From contig JAFXRG010000041.1 in the NCBI GenBank assembly GCA_017526525.1, forward strand, positions 1 through 64,000: a DNA stretch of 64,000 nt, written 5' to 3'. This DNA comes from Clostridia bacterium (GTDB lineage Bacteria; Bacillota; Clostridia; Christensenellales; Aristaeellaceae). How positions within the stretch are numbered: the first letter of the stretch is position 1; each line of letters opens with the position of its first letter. The position numbers were made by a program, and so were the translations under genes. The notes beneath the pieces are model-generated. The model was not told the origin of the DNA, did no database searches, and saw only the letters and a program-made list of their open reading frames with translations. Of the stretch, positions 15,332-32,140 are shown one piece after another.

Positions 15332-16462
15332 TCACGAACGAGCATTGCGGAACCGGGCTTCGAGTGACTTTGTCCGCTCCCTGATTTCTTCGATGATCTG
15401 CCTGCAGGTTTTCAGCGGGAGACCGGCCTTTTTCCCGACTGCTGTCAACTCTTTTTCTCCTGGGTCGCGTCCGTTTCCATCCACCGTGGTGGTGTGCTCT
15501 CCGAAGTATGTGGTGCTCCAGGTCAGATCATAGGCCGGAGAGGGATGCCAGCAGTCGTACCGTGGATCGTAAATCCAGGTGAAGTTTTTCAGGTGATCAT
15601 CCCGGTTGTGGGCGTACACATTGAAGCACATTCGCCGGTACATTTGCAGAAGATCTTCTTCATTGCTGCGGGAAAGGATGGTGGTCATCTTCATCAGCGT
15701 GTGATAATCCAGGGATGCGGATCTCCAGTCTGCTTCCAGTATTGCAGCGGCGGTCAGCATATGCAGGCGCTTCCCTTTGACGCGATCGAAACGCCGGACG
15801 GCGAAAAATCCGCTGCATCGTTTGGAGGGCAGGAGCTTTGTTTCCGGGACGAGGATGCCGCAGGAAGCGGCGCAGTCCATATAGGCCTTCTCCATAAGCC
15901 CGGTGTCTTGCATGTCCCCGGACGCAGGAAACTTGATGATCCATTCTTCGGTCATCACCTTGGGCCTGGCCCCGCCGCTGCTACCGCCCAGTTGGAAAAG
16001 TTCATCCGGGTCTGCGGCGTCATCATGCTGCAGCAACGCGCTGCACTGAGCGGCAAGGGTGTCCAGATCCTTGATCACCGTATCATGGGACAAATCCCAG
16101 GCAGGGCGGTAGGTCAGTGCGCCCATTCCGGCACTGCTCACGATGGCCAAACGTTCAAGCGTCGAAACGTCGTCAGGCGCATAGCCGTGGCTGCGCAGCA
16201 TTCGATCCACAAGGAGCCGTCCCCAGGCGTCAGGCAGACTGTCGGCAAATACGCCCCACAAGCCCTGAAAGTTCAGGGAAGCCGGGACATAGACCTTCTG
16301 CTCCAGAGGAAGCGAGAAGGGGCTGATGGCAAAGCCGTCTGCGAGCCAGTCGTCCTCATACGCAAACGCGACCCGATGATCTGCGGTTTCCGCCAGTGTG
16401 CCAACCAGGCGGCCTTCCAGGAAAACTTCCGCTTTATGTGCGCTCACGAATGACCTCCTCAA
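15332..16462 (-). CDS. HipA-like serine/threonine kinase toxin
   Basis: Protein of 376 residues of the HipA family, kinases that halt growth by phosphorylating targets such as glutamyl-tRNA synthetase. Residues 10-110 form the HipA N1-type domain (LPDAWGRLLVDRML). The Gly-rich P-loop GGSSGGARPKV is at 159-169, the catalytic loop AHNRDDHLKNF (Asp288 as base) at 284-294, and the metal-binding Asp312 in PSPAYDL. It is shorter than E. coli HipA (440) but has all catalytic motifs. The start overlaps the HTH gene by 29 bases, so the pair is a toxin-antitoxin unit with the antitoxin first. Confidence 0.9.
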   Translation of the reverse strand: MRRSFVSAHKAEVFLEGRLVGTLAETADHRVAFAYEDDWLADGFAISPFSLPLEQKVYVPASLNFQGLWGVFADSLPDAWGRLLVDRMLRSHGYAPDDVSTLERLAIVSSAGMGALTYRPAWDLSHDTVIKDLDTLAAQCSALLQHDDAADPDELFQLGGSSGGARPKVMTEEWIIKFPASGDMQDTGLMEKAYMDCAASCGILVPETKLLPSKRCSGFFAVRRFDRVKGKRLHMLTAAAILEADWRSASLDYHTLMKMTTILSRSNEEDLLQMYRRMCFNVYAHNRDDHLKNFTWIYDPRYDCWHPSPAYDLTWSTTYFGEHTTTVDGNGRDPGEKELTAVGKKAGLPLKTCRQIIEEIRERTKSLEARFRNARS

Positions 16463-16709
16463 TGGAATTGTACGTCACATCCGCAAACAGCTGCCGGATA
16501 GCGTCTGCGCAGTCCAGCGCCACGGCAAGCCGGGTCAGGGAGATCAGAGAAATCAGGCCGGTGCTCTCAAAACGCTTGATGCTGCCAAAACTGACATTGC
16601 TCTTTTCACTCAGTTGCTGCTGTGTGAGTCCCCGGCGCTTGCGGATTCCACGCAGCCGTTGTGCCAATGCCAGATCCATTTCTTCCGGCGTTTCCCATGT
16701 GAATCCCAT
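16434..16709 (-). CDS. HipB-like XRE family antitoxin
   Basis: DNA-binding protein of 91 residues with a Cro/C1-type helix-turn-helix (residues about 12-65, including LRGIRKRRGLTQQQLSEKSN and VSFGSIKRFESTG). It precedes and overlaps the HipA gene. Antitoxins of this type bind the kinase and repress their own promoter. The ATG at 16709 is chosen because aggagg lies 7 bases upstream; longer ORF starts lie beyond that site. A perfect 16-bp palindrome 16 bases upstream of the start is the likely operator. Confidence 0.88.
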   Translation of the reverse strand: MGFTWETPEEMDLALAQRLRGIRKRRGLTQQQLSEKSNVSFGSIKRFESTGLISLISLTRLAVALDCADAIRQLFADVTYNSIEEVIRERT

Positions 16710-16724
16710 TTGGTGCCCTCCTGT

Positions 16725-16740
16725 GGATAATATATTATCC
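16725..16740. promoter_or_regulatory. HipB-type operator palindrome
   Basis: GGATAATATATTATCC is a perfect 16-bp palindrome in the promoter region of the HTH-HipA pair. A second half-match, ATAATATTATCC, lies at 16770-16781. Together they look like two operator sites for autorepression. Confidence 0.7.
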
Positions 16741-17008
16741 AAATTTGCAGAATATAGCCTTTAAAAGCTATAATATTATCCGCATTCATTATACTACGCC
16801 AGATGAATTTCAACAACAGGAAAGTGTTTTTTGCAGGTACCCGTTCTGCGCGATGTGTTCTTCACTTCGAAGCAAGGCCAATTGAAATGCAGATGATTAT
16901 CGGACAATTCAGCATTTTGAACATTTCCTGTTTGTTACTTTATATGCAACATGCTAATATATATGTTACATGCAGAAATGCATATAAGTTTCTCCCGGAG
17001 GTGTACCC

Positions 17009-17179
17009 ATGCTAACGAAAGCCGAACTGCCGGGCTGTCCGGTTGCTACGACACTGCGGCTCATCGGAAACAAATGGAAGATGCTGATCCTGCGAAACCT
17101 GCTGGTCCGCCCGTGGCGATTCAACGAAATGCTCCGTTCCATTCCCGGGATCAGCCAGAAGGTGCGTGAAAGAGAATGA
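17009..17179 (+). pseudogene. Truncated HxlR family regulator (56 aa)
   Basis: The frame starts MLTKAELPGCPVATTLRLIG and has NKWKMLILRNLL and RFNEMLRSIPGISQKV, the N-terminal half of an HxlR-type winged helix, with the conserved first Cys. It stops at GISQKVRERE, inside the recognition helix, and lacks the wing and dimer helix. It keeps a good ribosome site (ggagg) and its stop overlaps the macrodomain start (ATGA). It is either a broken regulator or a short coupled leader. An imperfect TGTTAC/GCAACA repeat (16930-16948) upstream may be the old operator. Confidence 0.7.
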
Positions 17180-17955
17180 ACCAGAATGAAAGACGCCGAT
17201 GGCTGATCCATGCCCTGCTGGAAGAAATGCCGCAGGATCAATATCCGGTTTTTCCGCTTGCGGCGGATCGCCAGTGGCGGCTGCTTCGAAGCCTGATGAA
17301 CGTCCGTCAGCCAATGCCGGTATCGGAGGAGTTCCTGCAAGTCCAGGATGCCTTCCTGAAGGAAATGACAGAGGAAAAGGGCATAACTGACGCGGACAGC
17401 CTGCCGCCCTGCGCCGGAGACAGCAGTCTCGTCCTTTGGCAGGGGGATATTACAACCCTTCGGTGTGACGCCATCGTCAACGCCGCGAACAGCCAGATGC
17501 TGGGCTGCTTTTCTCCGTGCCACGGATGCATTGACAATATCATCCATACCATGAGCGGCGTGCAGCTGCGCCTGGCTTGCCATGAGCTGATGCAGGCACA
17601 GGGACATGAGGAACCCACCGGACAGGCAAAGATCACCCCCGGCTTCAATCTTCCTGCGAAGTACGTGTTGCATACGGTCGGACCGATCATCAATGATGAG
17701 GTCACCCCGGAAGACGAAGCATTGCTGGCATCCTGCTATCGTTCCTGCCTGGAACTGGCAGAGGAGCACAATCTGCATTCCATAGCCTTCTGCTGCATCT
17801 CCACCGGTGTTTTCCGCTTCCCGCCGGACCTCGCGGCAGAGACTGCCATCCGGACTGTGGGGGAATTCCTGCGGAAAGGAACCGGTATCCGGCGCGTGAT
17901 TTTCAATGTATTCAAAGACAGCGATCTGGAAATATACCGGAATCTCCTGGCATAA
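17176..17955 (+). CDS. Zinc-dependent macrodomain protein-ADP-ribose hydrolase
   Basis: Protein of 259 residues of the SirTM-linked macrodomain class, which removes ADP-ribose from protein side chains. The ADP-ribose pocket starts at [13 protein letters not shown]. The zinc-binding insertion follows as CFSPCHGCIDNII, with Cys/His ligands as in the staphylococcal and streptococcal members. AKITPGFNLPAKYVLHTVGP and CISTGVFRFP complete the fold. Residues 1-85 are the helical N-terminal part seen in this class. It overlaps the HxlR fragment by 4 bases and is followed 138 bases later by the SirTM gene, its usual partner. Confidence 0.92.
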   Translation: MNQNERRRWLIHALLEEMPQDQYPVFPLAADRQWRLLRSLMNVRQPMPVSEEFLQVQDAFLKEMTEEKGITDADSLPPCAGDSSLVLWQGDITTLRCDAIVNAANSQMLGCFSPCHGCIDNIIHTMSGVQLRLACHELMQAQGHEEPTGQAKITPGFNLPAKYVLHTVGPIINDEVTPEDEALLASCYRSCLELAEEHNLHSIAFCCISTGVFRFPPDLAAETAIRTVGEFLRKGTGIRRVIFNVFKDSDLEIYRNLLA

Positions 17956-18093
17956 AAAATGCTCCCGGCCTGCCTGTAACTGCCCGGTTACAAAAAGGTA
18001 ACTGACTGATAAAAAAGTGCGTACTGTCGCTGATTTCATGGATATGATATGGTTGGAAGGCCGAAGGAAATACAGAATCGGCGGGGAGTGATC

Positions 18094-18981
18094 ATGATGG
18101 ATGCAAAGGTATTGCTGCTGAAGGAAAAGATTGATCAGGCGGACGCTGTGATCATCGGCGCGGGCGCGGGACTGTCCACGGCTGCCGGATTTGTGTATGC
18201 CGGAGAACGGTTCGACAGATACTTCAGTGATTTTAGCCGGAAGTACGGTTTCAGGGACATGTATTCCGGCGGATTCTGGCCCTATAAAACACAGGAAGAG
18301 TTCTGGGCCTACTGGAGCCGGTATATCTGGATCAACCGCTACATGGACGCGCCGAAATCCGCCTACAGCGATCTGTACCGGATTGTGAAAGACAAGGACT
18401 ATTTTGTCCTGACCACCAACGTTGACCATTGCTTTCAGAAAGCCGGGTTCGACAAAAAACGGCTGTTCTATACCCAGGGAGATTACGGCCTGTTCCAGTG
18501 CACAAAGCCCTGCTGCAAAAAGACTTGGGAAAACGAGGACATGGTCCGGAACATGATCCTGTCCCAGGGGTATACCATCGGCGAGCATAATGAACTGATT
18601 CTCCCGGACGGCGCTGAAGCAAAGATGAGCATTCCGGCAGAGTTGCTGCCGAAGTGCCCCGACTGCGGACGTCCCCTGACCATGAACCTTCGGTCGGATA
18701 ACAGGTTCGTGGAGGACGAAGGGTGGCAGGCCGCCGCTGCCAGGTATGAGATCTGGCTGACGCAGCATCAGAACCGGAAGATTGTTTTCCTGGAGATCGG
18801 TGTGGGGTACAATACCCCCGGCATTATCAAATACAGCTTCTGGCAGCAGGTATATCAGAACAGGAACGCAACCTATGCCTGCCTGAACATGGAAGAAGAA
18901 CGGGTTCCGGAGGAGATCCGGGAACAGTCCGTCCTCATCAGCGGGGATTCCGCACAGGTTATCCGGGAGCTGATCTCATGA
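18094..18981 (+). CDS. SirTM-class sirtuin (protein ADP-ribosyltransferase)
   Basis: Class M sirtuin of 295 residues, expected to attach ADP-ribose from NAD+ to a protein rather than deacetylate. NAD-binding GAGAGLSTAAGF is at 22-33 and TTNVDHCFQKAGF at 107-119. The usual catalytic His is replaced by Gln128 in FYTQGDYGLFQC, the mark of SirTM. Zinc-ribbon Cys pairs are C136/C140 region and CPDCGRP. In described operons the target is a lipoylated GcvH-like carrier; none is visible here. The ATG at 18094 follows ggggag; 18097 is an equally possible start. It is followed by DUF1848 with a 4-base overlap. Confidence 0.9.
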   Translation: MMDAKVLLLKEKIDQADAVIIGAGAGLSTAAGFVYAGERFDRYFSDFSRKYGFRDMYSGGFWPYKTQEEFWAYWSRYIWINRYMDAPKSAYSDLYRIVKDKDYFVLTTNVDHCFQKAGFDKKRLFYTQGDYGLFQCTKPCCKKTWENEDMVRNMILSQGYTIGEHNELILPDGAEAKMSIPAELLPKCPDCGRPLTMNLRSDNRFVEDEGWQAAAARYEIWLTQHQNRKIVFLEIGVGYNTPGIIKYSFWQQVYQNRNATYACLNMEEERVPEEIREQSVLISGDSAQVIRELIS

Positions 18982-19916
18982 TCATCAATACAGGGATGCG
19001 CACAGATATTCCCGCCTTCTACTCTGACTGGTTTGTGAACCGGCTGAAGGCCGGGTTTGTGCTGGTCCGCAATCCCTACAATCCCCGTTCCGTTACCCGC
19101 TACCGGCTCTCACCGGACGTGGTGGACCTGATCGGCTTCTGTACGAAGAATCCGGCGCCCATGTTCCCGCATATGGAACTGCTCCGTCCCTACGGACAAT
19201 ACTGGTTTGTCACGGTCACGCCGTATGGAAAAGAGATCGAACCGCGTGTTCCGGACAAGCGGAACGTACTTGAAAGCATAAAGCGTCTTTCTGATACAGT
19301 TGGTGCGGACAGCGTAGGATGGCGGTACGACCCGATCTTCATCAGCGATCAGTATCCGGTTGAACGGCACATCAAAGCATTCGGGTATATGGCAAAAGCA
19401 CTGTCGGGGTATACACGCACGGCAGTGATCAGCTTTATTGATCTGTATGAAAAAACGAAGCGAAACTTCCCGGAGGCGAGGCAGGTCACCGCGGAACAGC
19501 GGCTCTTGCTGGGAAAGACATTTACAGAGATCGGGAAGCAATATGGCATGACAATCCGTCCCTGCGGAGAAGGAAATGAATTGGCACCCTTCGGCGCGGA
19601 CTGCAGCGGATGCATGACGAAAGCTACCTATGAGCAGGCACTGCATCAGCGGCTGAAGATGCCGAAGACTGCACCGGCCCGGAAGGAATGCGCCTGCTAC
19701 CTGGGCGGAGATATCGGAGCATATAACACCTGCGGCCATCTGTGCCGATATTGTTACGCGAACTATGACGCAAATACAGTCAGGAAGAACATGGCCATAC
19801 ATGACCCGAAATCGCCGCTTCTTATCGGACAGTTGATGCCGGAGGACCAGGTACATGAAGCCAGACAGGAAAGCTGGATTGATCCTCAGATTTCTATTGA
19901 CAGCATTATAGTATGA
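18978..19916 (+). CDS. DUF1848 family protein with C-terminal CxxxCxxC
   Basis: Protein of 312 residues. The N-terminal DUF1848 region includes RTDIPAFYSDWF, FVLVRNPYNP and FCTKNPAPM, then a TIM-barrel-like core (SVGWRYDPIF). The C-terminal quarter is Cys-rich: CSGCM, ECACYLGGDIGAYN and CGHLCRYCYANYD, the last a CxxxCxxC as used for the 4Fe-4S cluster of radical SAM enzymes, though in an unusual C-terminal place. The ATGA overlap with SirTM implies one operon with the macrodomain gene. No function is established; processing of an ADP-ribosylated or lipoylated target is only a guess from context. Confidence 0.85.
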   Translation: MIINTGMRTDIPAFYSDWFVNRLKAGFVLVRNPYNPRSVTRYRLSPDVVDLIGFCTKNPAPMFPHMELLRPYGQYWFVTVTPYGKEIEPRVPDKRNVLESIKRLSDTVGADSVGWRYDPIFISDQYPVERHIKAFGYMAKALSGYTRTAVISFIDLYEKTKRNFPEARQVTAEQRLLLGKTFTEIGKQYGMTIRPCGEGNELAPFGADCSGCMTKATYEQALHQRLKMPKTAPARKECACYLGGDIGAYNTCGHLCRYCYANYDANTVRKNMAIHDPKSPLLIGQLMPEDQVHEARQESWIDPQISIDSIIV

Positions 19917-29116: not shown

Positions 29117-30094
29117 TTACAGCATACCCGATGCATCCATACAGTTCTGATAGCATTCCCTCGTTGCCACGTCGTAGCAAACCATGATCACTGCCATGCC
29201 ATAGTCCGGATTTTCTGACAGCCATCCGGAAACGGAATGAAGGGCAATGGCCGCCGCTTCCTGCTTCGGGTACCCATAGGCTCCGGTGGAAATGGCCGGG
29301 AAAGCAATACTGTGGATATCATGTTTTTTGGCAAGCTCCAGGGAATTCCAATAGCAGTTGAACAGCTGCTGCCCGCACATTCTGTTTCCGGCCTGATAAT
29401 GCGGCCCGACCGTGTGAATGATGTACCTGCAATCCAGGTTCCATCCGCCTGTGATCTTTGCCTGGCCAACCTGGCAGCCGCCGAGTTTTCTGCATTCGTT
29501 CAGCAGCCCGGGACCGGCAGCCCGGTGGATTGCGCCGTCCACGCCTCCGCCGCCAAGCAAGGTCTGATTTGCGGCATTGACAATTGCGTCCACCTTCATC
29601 TTCGTAATGTCGCAGATTTCAAAACAGATGTGATTATCCGGGGTATCCGCCTCCAGGATCATGCGAATCAGGTCTTTCGTCAGGAGAAAGGATTCCCCCC
29701 ATGGATTGATCATAATTCCTTCTTCCCGCATATTCCTGCTGCCTTTAAGAATGTCCTCCACAGGCTGGCAGATTGTGGAGGTGCTTTCACCCTTTTCAAG
29801 CTCTTCGCCGGAGGTAAAAGCAGCCATCCACTCCCTGCCGTCGCCGGTTTCAATATGATTTACCCTGAAATGCAGCTCTTCTTCAACCGTGAACGTATCT
29901 CCGACGCTGATTGTCTCCGGATTCAGCATATCAAACATCTCCAGCGGAGGAATAACGGGGATCATCCATTCACCGCCTTCGTGCATGCTTGCCCTTATCG
30001 CTTCCAGGACCCCGATGATCGTCTTCCTGTCCGGCTTTTCGTAATACAGATGAATGGCATCCGCAAGCTTTTTGCCGGCAGCCGGGTTTTCCAT
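29117..30094 (-). CDS. SseB-domain/macrodomain fusion protein
   Basis: Protein of 325 residues with two parts. Residues 15-145 resemble the SseB N-terminal domain ([50 protein letters not shown]). Residues about 155-325 are a MacroD-like macrodomain: [20 protein letters not shown] is the ADP-ribose loop, with [20 protein letters not shown] and [16 protein letters not shown] completing the pocket. The macrodomain should hydrolyse ADP-ribose esters or O-acetyl-ADP-ribose. It overlaps the ADP-ribosylglycohydrolase gene by one base, so the two erasers are made together. Confidence 0.9.
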
Positions 30095-30897
30095 CAGGCT
30101 TTCCCCCTTTTCATTCCATCGAAGCGGTCAAGAACGGCTTTCATATTCTCCGGCAGCCGGTCCCTGCATTCCCGCTTCAAATAATCCGGGATGCCGTACA
30201 TTGCTTCCGCGATTCCGGCGGCAATGCAGGTCAGCGTGTCACAGTCTCCGCCCAAAGACACCGCGGTCCGGACCACATCCTCAAAGCCGTCTCCTTCCAT
30301 AAAGGCCGTAATGGCTTCCGGAACGGTTTCCTGGCAGGTTTCGATGTGGTAATAGGACGGGCGGATTTCATCGCAGGTCCGGGACAGATCATACCCGAAT
30401 TCCCGGATGATGTAATTCCGGATTTCGTCCTTGCTGCTGCCGTTCCTGGCCATCCAGACAGCGCTGGCCGTGGCTTCCGCGCCTTTGATGCCTTCCGGAT
30501 GATTGTGCGTTACTTCCGCGGTCAGGCCGGCTATATGCCGTGTTTCCTCCAGCGTATCAAACAGCCATCCAGCGGAAGACACCCGCATAGCGCTTCCGTT
30601 GCCGAAACTGCCATAGGGTTTCGGATTCAGGGTGTGCAGCCACTGATAGAACATGCCGCCGTAGCCGGCATCCGGGAATAACCGGCCCCATTTTTTCATG
30701 GACTTCACCAGCGCATCTTTGATTTCATCATCCGATTTGCCCAGGGTATCCATCAGGGCTTCCGCAACGGCAACGGTCATCACGGAATCATCCGTGAATT
30801 CGGAACGGTTGCAGAACAGCGGGAATTCCTTTGTTTTCGGGCTCCTGTCAAACTCATAGGGGGCACCAATCATATCGCCCAGAATGGCTCCGATCAT
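30094..30897 (-). CDS. ADP-ribosylglycohydrolase (DraG/ARH family)
   Basis: Mg2+-dependent hydrolase of 267 residues that removes ADP-ribose from protein, nucleic acid or small molecules. The family start [19 protein letters not shown], the metal-binding [15 protein letters not shown], the mid-helix [13 protein letters not shown] and the late metal motif [19 protein letters not shown] are all intact, and length matches bacterial members. It is the first gene of a two-gene unit with the SseB-macrodomain fusion, with ggaggt upstream of its start. It may clear ADP-ribosylation placed by the SirTM 12 kb away or by incoming toxins; that is inference. Confidence 0.93.
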
Positions 30898-30943
30898 CTT
30901 TCATGACCTCCTTCGTTCCTGATGATATCAGTATAAACGAGCG

Positions 30944-30989
30944 AAAAAAAGAAGCGGTCGTTTGCCGGACGACAAATCAACCGCTTCCG
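30944..30989 (-). terminator. Rho-independent terminator of the macrodomain-HTH gene
   Basis: GAAGCGGT and ACCGCTTC arms (30951-30958, 30980-30987) with a 21-base loop, followed on the minus strand by seven T. Confidence 0.72.
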
Positions 30990-30992
30990 GAT

Positions 30993-32084
30993 TTATTCGC
31001 CGAGGATCGGCTGGCCGTATTTGAAGAGCGCCGCGTTAATTTCGAAAATATCGTAGATGCCATGGGTGACGAAGTACGTGATAATCAGATCAAACTTGTT
31101 GCTGGGAGAGAACGCGATTTCTGCGCGGGACAACAGATCCAGCATGGTGGGCATATCCAGCTGCAGCGCAATGGCGAAGGCTACCGCCGTCCTTTTCTTC
31201 GGCCTGTAGTCTTCCCTGCAGCGTATCCGGGAGAACACTTTCCGATCGATATTGGCCTTCTTGTAGACGGTTACATCATCCATGCCGCTGGCATCAATCA
31301 GCTGGAACAGCTTCTGCTGGAAAGTGTCCCCGGTGTTCTGAAGCATATCATCCAGCGATTTGCTTTCGATGTCCGGAATGGATGCGCATTTTGGAGCCGC
31401 GGGTTCCGGCGCGCTGTCAAAGAACACTGCTTCTTCATCCGGAAAATCTGTTTTGCGGCGGAACGGCCTGTTGTCAGCCGGCATGCCGGCCATTTCCCTC
31501 CTGCGGCGTTCCAGACGGCTCATACCGCTGCCGTATTCCGCTTCCCGCGCAAGCTGTACACCGTGATCATCGATAAACTCATCAATTGCGCCGACAAGCC
31601 GGCCGGAGAGCTCAAAGGCTTTGCGGTCAAAAACAACCAGAATGACATTCATATCATGAGTCAGCAGGAACCTGCCGATCTCAGCAAGGGCGATGCTCAG
31701 CGCTTCATCCCTGGGGAATCCATACACGCCCGTTGCGATCAGCGGGAAAGCAATGCTTTCCGCCTTCAGTTCCGCCGCTTTGGCCAGAGATTTCTCATAG
31801 CATGAGTGAAGAATATCCCGCTCCCCGTGATTTCCGTCCTCCCATGCCGGACCGACGGTATGAATGACATAGTCGGCAGGCAAATTGAACGCCGGTGTCA
31901 CGGCGACCTGGCCCGGGGCAATCCGGCCGATCTTTTTCCGCTCGGCAAGCAGCTGCTGTTCACCGGCGGCATGATAGACCGCGCTGTCTGTTCCGCTGCC
32001 GACCACGGGATACGGATTGGCTGTATTAACGATCACATCGGCCCTGACCTTTGTAAGGTCATTTCGAACAATCTGAAACGGCAT
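30993..32084 (-). CDS. Macrodomain protein with C-terminal helix-turn-helix-like module
   Basis: Protein of 363 residues. Residues 1-170 are a macrodomain with DVIVNTANPYPVVGSGTDSA, where the usual Gly-rich loop [10 protein letters not shown] is altered, so binding rather than catalysis is possible. The segment 170-245 is a polar linker. Residues 250-363 form a conserved clostridial module (KLFQLIDASGMDDVTVYKKA, NIDRKVFSRIRC, FDLIITYFVTHGIYDIFEIN) that looks like a small XRE-type helical domain. The ATG at 32084 has ggagggg 5 bases ahead; the longer frame to 32135 lacks one. It could sense ADP-ribose and act on DNA or a partner protein. Confidence 0.85.
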   Translation of the reverse strand: MPFQIVRNDLTKVRADVIVNTANPYPVVGSGTDSAVYHAAGEQQLLAERKKIGRIAPGQVAVTPAFNLPADYVIHTVGPAWEDGNHGERDILHSCYEKSLAKAAELKAESIAFPLIATGVYGFPRDEALSIALAEIGRFLLTHDMNVILVVFDRKAFELSGRLVGAIDEFIDDHGVQLAREAEYGSGMSRLERRRREMAGMPADNRPFRRKTDFPDEEAVFFDSAPEPAAPKCASIPDIESKSLDDMLQNTGDTFQQKLFQLIDASGMDDVTVYKKANIDRKVFSRIRCREDYRPKKRTAVAFAIALQLDMPTMLDLLSRAEIAFSPSNKFDLIITYFVTHGIYDIFEINAALFKYGQPILGE

Positions 32085-32140
32085 TTTTCCCCTCCGTGAA
32101 ACAGGAACCATAACGTAAAAACCACAATTCGACACAGGCC

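Follow-up and report, generated by a model that had tools for sequence, protein, structure and literature searches.

What would a class M sirtuin (SirTM) and its zinc macrodomain protein (Zn-Macro) act on when no lipoyl carrier is encoded beside them? The question is raised by positions 17,009 to 19,916 of a 64-kb stretch from a Clostridia bacterium of the family Aristaeellaceae (assembly GCA_017526525.1, contig JAFXRG010000041.1, positions 1 to 64,000; hereafter the window). As the first-pass annotation had described, a fragment of an HxlR regulator gene, a Zn-Macro gene, a SirTM gene and a gene of the Pfam family DUF1848 follow one another there, with ATGA overlaps at the first and last junctions. 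Our favored answer, to which we give a probability of roughly 45%, is a reversible mono-ADP-ribosylation module with DUF1848 as a dedicated third component in the place of the lipoyl carrier. The locus is an instance of a real variant of SirTM/Zn-Macro ADP-ribosylation that recurs in genomes mostly devoid of GcvH and lipoate ligase, its partner protein being a predicted iron-sulfur (Fe-S) protein.

Predicted writer and eraser

The Zn-Macro gene (17176..17955, + strand) returns a hit of 353.9 bits with the protein-ADP-ribose hydrolase family NF003163 (cut-off 272), and the protein aligns with 5kiv and 8rsl, two relatives of solved structure, at E values near 1e-81. It exhibits the NAAN motif at residue 102, the Cx4HxC zinc loop at residue 111 (CFSPCHGC), which bears out the CxxxxHxC insertion noticed earlier, the Dx3H dyad at residue 120, and an N-terminal extension, the macro domain starting near residue 84-101 out of 259 in total. 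The SirTM gene (18094..18981, + strand, the start being the likely one) encodes 295 residues that match SpySirTM (5a3a, E 4e-68). At residue 127, the segment TQGDYG has QG in place of the catalytic HG, confirming the proposed substitution of Gln for the catalytic His, and GVGYNTP at residue 236 conforms to the GVGx[NT]TP motif. The counterparts of SpySirTM Asn118, Gln137, and Arg192 (numbering of PMC4518038) are conserved in the alignment to 5a3a, once a manually derived chain offset of 10 is allowed for. Linkage to a Zn-macrodomain gene, also a class M feature, is observed 138 bp upstream. With every sequence feature examined in place, the defining motifs being those of PMC4518038 and PMC11490716, the window SirTM is a predicted ADP-ribosyltransferase, expected as a class M member to lack deacylase activity, and the Zn-Macro a predicted ADP-ribosyl hydrolase.

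The same two families, with the same motifs, occur in the extended operon of Staphylococcus aureus and Streptococcus pyogenes, together with LplA2, GcvH-L, LLM, and OYE. In contrast, none of these four partners was found among the window neighbors scanned, so that GcvH-L and LplA2 do not stand alongside SirTM, as had been claimed; instead, the last 4 nt of the SirTM gene, stop included, are also the first 4 nt of the DUF1848 gene (18978..19916, + strand). The locus had been proposed to be one operon. This holds for the HxlR/macrodomain and SirTM/DUF1848 junctions with their ATGA overlaps, while the 138 bp between macrodomain and SirTM mean that a single transcript across that interval is presumed.

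The lack of GcvH-L and LplA2 had been taken as a possible sign of a new version of the system. It is not new by itself, because SirTM/Zn-Macro pairs devoid of lipoyl partners are already described as independent or minimal operons (PMC4518038, PMC11490716). The window resembles the minimal operon of PMC11490716 in this respect and differs from it by a third gene coupled to SirTM.

The DUF1848 protein

DUF1848 matches PF08902 over its full length (326.2 bits, above the curated cut-off; profile positions 1-262 of 262). Seven cysteines are invariant (residues 196, 212, 238, 240, 252, 256, and 259), and the last three form a CX3CX2C motif (CGHLCRYC at residue 252) whose cysteines are unchanged in 79 aligned sequences. 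This motif covers residues 252-259 out of 312 in total and lies C-terminal to the barrel segment. In the radical S-adenosylmethionine (SAM) superfamily the motif is normally found after the first barrel strand, a placement from which DUF1848 departs. The AlphaFold2 model (predicted local distance difference test score of 91) appears to resemble a radical SAM barrel with the CX3CX2C motif shifted to the C-terminus. DUF1848 has this motif in common with spore photoproduct lyase (SPL), NifB, the pyruvate formate-lyase (PFL)-activating enzyme, and MqnE, but carries it at the other end; in the known radical SAM enzymes, the aligned part begins well inside the chain, as a circular permutation would predict.

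Several searches do not bear out this view of the fold, and counts given below weigh against a dedicated partnership with SirTM. When native and rotated DUF1848 sequences were compared with radical SAM and DUF5131 profiles, the cysteine motif alone was matched and the rotation brought no gain; the case for circular permutation therefore rests on the aligned ranges of the model obtained with VIA-align. Sequence searches of the PDB returned no credible relative of DUF1848, and Foldseek analysis of the model against the PDB reported no clear single fold. The most likely identity of DUF1848 is that of an Fe-S protein whose fold derives from a radical SAM barrel by rearrangement, and we infer its Fe-S or radical function from these features; a radical SAM enzyme would be expected to hold a [4Fe-4S] cluster and to cleave SAM. 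No paper on DUF1848 (PF08902) was found in the literature searched.

In the favored explanation, SirTM would write and Zn-Macro would erase mono-ADP-ribose, and DUF1848 would be their dedicated, probably co-translated partner where the known operons hold the lipoyl carrier. The probable substrate of SirTM is DUF1848 itself or else a protein made or matured by DUF1848. The modification would switch the redox or radical chemistry of this substrate off and on, possibly under thiol or oxidative stress, with the HxlR regulator, partly deleted here, as a putative sensor.

Recurrence of the SirTM-DUF1848 pair

SirTM, counted at 100 bits or more, is present in 67 of the 297 genomes sampled from the order. 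Our reading covered 107 SirTM neighborhoods: 74 from the order, 32 from among the higher-scoring loci of the class, and that of the window itself. Some of them are truncated at contig ends, and a few belong to distant sirtuins. In eight, DUF1848 is found no more than 5.5 kb from SirTM: the window, four loci of its genus (L071-L074), and three from two other families (L282-L284). Within the genus, it adjoins SirTM in all five SirTM-positive genomes; the sixth genome sampled (G079) has neither gene. Seen from the other side, among the best 80 of at least 576 confirmed DUF1848 relatives in GTDB genomes, 18 loci adjoin SirTM or Zn-Macro, and both possible gene orders occur. SirTM is just upstream in 12 of them (in L165 it ends at a contig end, and in L176 it is a short remnant) and downstream in four; two have a macrodomain alone downstream, near a contig end. 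In Eubacterium minutum (L184), nothing but a macrodomain piece of 40 bits separates DUF1848 from SirTM. An adjacency limited to a single genome would have undone the proposal, and a one-genome accident is ruled out by this recurrence across the genus and beyond.

That DUF1848 is the usual replacement of GcvH-L/LplA2 is not supported: HxlR (51 of the 107 loci), PNPOx-ferredoxin (32), cupin (15), a radical SAM gene of the ACGX type discussed below (13), Rrf2 (12), and nitroreductase (12) all outnumber DUF1848 (8), followed by DUF5131 (6). Redox flavoproteins are frequent neighbors of clostridial SirTM too, as in the extended operon of S. aureus and S. pyogenes. Two contexts recur at many loci, namely HxlR/cupin/macrodomain/SirTM and SnoaL/Rrf2/PNPOx/macrodomain/SirTM (e.g., L078, L086, and L051 for the cupin or SnoaL type). 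DUF5131 (PF07505, checked on L037), another cysteine-cluster protein, is found near SirTM at L037, L087, L091, L094, L290, and L296, and at none of the 107 loci do DUF1848 and DUF5131 coincide.

These counts bear on a second explanation, in which DUF1848 is a mere frequent companion in the operon, for example another stress protein controlled by the same regulator, and the SirTM/Zn-Macro target is unlinked, as in minimal operons. MorMacro, from one such operon, does not act on GcvH-L (PMC11490716). Among the best 80 DUF1848 loci, 62 show neither SirTM nor macrodomain within 3 kb, in some cases because too little flanking sequence is available, and of the 59 that are flanked by 1.5 kb or more on each side, 11 are linked to either; most SirTM loci have other neighbors or none. 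Against mere companionship stands the tightness of the junction. The overlap was measured in 15 SirTM-then-DUF1848 pairs, five of the genus and ten others, leaving out L135 (inserted frame) and L176, and is exactly 4 nt in 12 of them, the other three having gaps of 4, 15, and 258 nt. The two gene orders also speak for a closer tie, as does the fact that SirTM and DUF1848 stay together at loci whose macrodomain is far off or was not found in the vicinity. We consider the companion explanation rather unlikely, and favor DUF1848 as the dedicated component.

In the DUF1848 tree, linked genes are scattered (26 of 90 rows, 16 changes at the fewest). The scatter is one of recurrent gain or loss of the SirTM linkage and gives no count of gains, since branch support is often weak and flanking sequence is missing for some unlinked rows. 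SirTM occurs in 22 of the 61 DUF1848-positive genomes of the order (odds ratio 2.4, p 0.009), implying that DUF1848 also works elsewhere. In a quick tree, the window SirTM belongs to a nine-row starred clade, which includes L135 and in which every row has DUF1848; four of the nine came from the DUF1848 search itself, and we discount the support of this clade because that search partly filled it. Of note, a second DUF1848 copy in the congener G254 (L280, contig C28) is preceded by a C-terminal remnant of SirTM.

Lipoyl partners elsewhere in the genomes

A GcvH-L/LplA2 pair elsewhere in the genome, serving as the substrate, had been named as the finding that would overturn the proposal, and the operon might still serve lipoyl chemistry if an unlinked gene supplied SirTM with a canonical GcvH or a different lipoyl-domain protein to modify. 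The window genome, 63.7% complete, returned no match for GcvH or for the lipoate ligase TIGR00545, its incompleteness leaving room for this explanation. Three congeners that are 97-99% complete (G097, G284, and G179) have neither gene. In contrast, the congener G254 carries both on contig C12, with about 3 kb between them, and its SirTM on another contig (C49). The overturning finding thus mostly fails, G254 excepted, and such a pair was rejected as a general answer for the genus.

More widely, GcvH is above cut-off in 17 and TIGR00545 in 24 of the 80 genomes searched, out of 98 SirTM-positive genomes listed, other lipoyl domains lying outside this search; the GcvH nearest to SirTM on one contig (G035) is more than 100 kb away. 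We regard lipoyl service as very improbable. The protein identities and residues, the overlaps, the recurrence, and the lack of GcvH and ligase in three near-complete congeners are read from the sequences; DUF1848 as the stand-in for the carrier is what we propose on that basis.

The ACGX cassette of Clostridia

Gene-by-gene reading indicates that, in Clostridia, SirTM and Zn-Macro often close a cassette comprising HxlR, a short ACG-repeat (ACGX) peptide, a radical SAM-SPASM gene, and then nitroreductase and PNPOx-ferredoxin genes, in this order. The radical SAM gene belongs to NCBIfam TIGR04340, rSAM_ACGX (609 bits at L155, cut-off 400). Within the order, nine of 297 genomes carry it over cut-off, eight with SirTM and three with both linked on one contig (G023, G212, and G272; in G155 the cassette is apparently split at contig ends), and within the class 15 of 391 do, all with SirTM, 12 within 4 kb. 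Taken together, SirTM is present in 23 of 24 such genomes and physically linked in 15 (Fisher p 3.5e-5 for the order and 6e-13 for the class, without phylogenetic correction). An ACGX peptide adjoins all 16 over-cut-off loci of the class and none of three below cut-off; in the order, it stands beside four of nine, two of the other five ending at contig ends. The peptides were picked with a looser pattern, made after the region had been read by eye, that also returned two false peptides (L035, L050), an uninterrupted ACGx repeat pattern having matched nothing. No paper joining ACGX or SirTM with radical SAM was found, and TIGR04340 and TIGR04341 were not met in the papers searched.

Of the 129 ACG units in these peptides, 81 read CGxxD and 40 directly precede another ACG. 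The CGxxD units place Asp at the CX3D distance from Cys, the same as in the Cys-to-Asp links made by PapB (PMC9413430). Since Zn-Macros cleave cysteine adducts and SpyGcvH-L is modified on Asp27 (PMC11490716), the Asp or Cys of the ACGX units could be an ADP-ribose site.

This raises the possibility that the main clostridial client is the ACGX peptide, that DUF1848 is an enzyme handling it, and that the window lineage keeps a reduced SirTM/Zn-Macro/DUF1848 version with another protein target. Besides the SirTM co-occurrence, DUF1848 lies within ACGX cassettes at L155, L183, L196, L284, and L332, and L135, among the nearest relatives (DUF1848 88-90% identical), holds an ACGX peptide, a radical SAM gene, and a nitroreductase gene, inverted, between macrodomain and SirTM. 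L332 (contig C26) is itself an additional ACGX cassette, the second of genome G550, and its DUF1848 gene immediately follows that for the nitroreductase. The window genome, at its partial completeness, differs in having no over-cut-off TIGR04340 gene and no match to the ACGX pattern (the NCBIfam peptide model was not run). An ACGxACG DNA pattern had no match in the six genomes of the genus, although a doublet-less peptide would escape it; as controls, it matched three known-peptide genomes (G155, G212, and G023), the reversed pattern matching twice, in G212. In addition, the congener G179 has an over-cut-off TIGR04340 gene with no ACGX peptide near it, 94 of the 107 SirTM loci have no such radical SAM gene nearby, and either loss of the cassette by the genus or its gain by L135 may have occurred. 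We hold the ACGX client to be unlikely, and retain DUF1848 as the dedicated component in the window. A broader proposal is similarly doubtful: clostridial SirTM/Zn-Macro would serve radical-made thiol chemistry, the Cys/Asp-rich ACGX peptides being reversibly ADP-ribosylated redox carriers that replace lipoyl-GcvH-L, and DUF1848 a circularly permuted radical SAM partner kept without the peptide in the window's genus.

The HxlR remnant and surrounding genes

The hxlR remnant (17009..17179, + strand, 56 residues) matches PF01638 with 36.9 bits over positions 1-35 of 91, and scores 43.9 bits with NF047364 (RrpB), below its cut-off of 175. DNA alignment with the longer genes of three congeners (L071, L072, and L073) reveals an in-frame internal deletion of 165 bp, which the ATGA coupling to the macrodomain ATG at 17176 has survived. 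The sequence 5' of the hxlR start is retained and shares a catgctaatat-like stretch with the three congeners. Just upstream of the operon, a HipA-like protein and its HTH partner are encoded on the - strand (15332-16742). About 9 kb downstream, also on the - strand (29117-32135), consecutive genes for an SseB-macrodomain protein, an ADP-ribosylglycohydrolase (PF03747), and another macrodomain protein form a second island for ADP-ribose removal.

Conclusions

The locus is best read as a case of reversible ADP-ribosylation that is linked to Fe-S, radical, and thiol chemistry rather than to lipoate. The parts of PMC4518038 and PMC11490716 consulted name no SirTM/Zn-Macro target outside lipoyl operons. 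The loci described here offer two candidates, DUF1848 and the ACGX peptide, testable with a handful of small proteins. The loci would give a first biological context to the DUF1848 Pfam family and to the ACGX system, whose cassette elsewhere in Clostridia ends with SirTM/Zn-Macro and sometimes includes DUF1848. The locus, together with its relatives, points to an unexplored branch of the ADP-ribosylation modification system.
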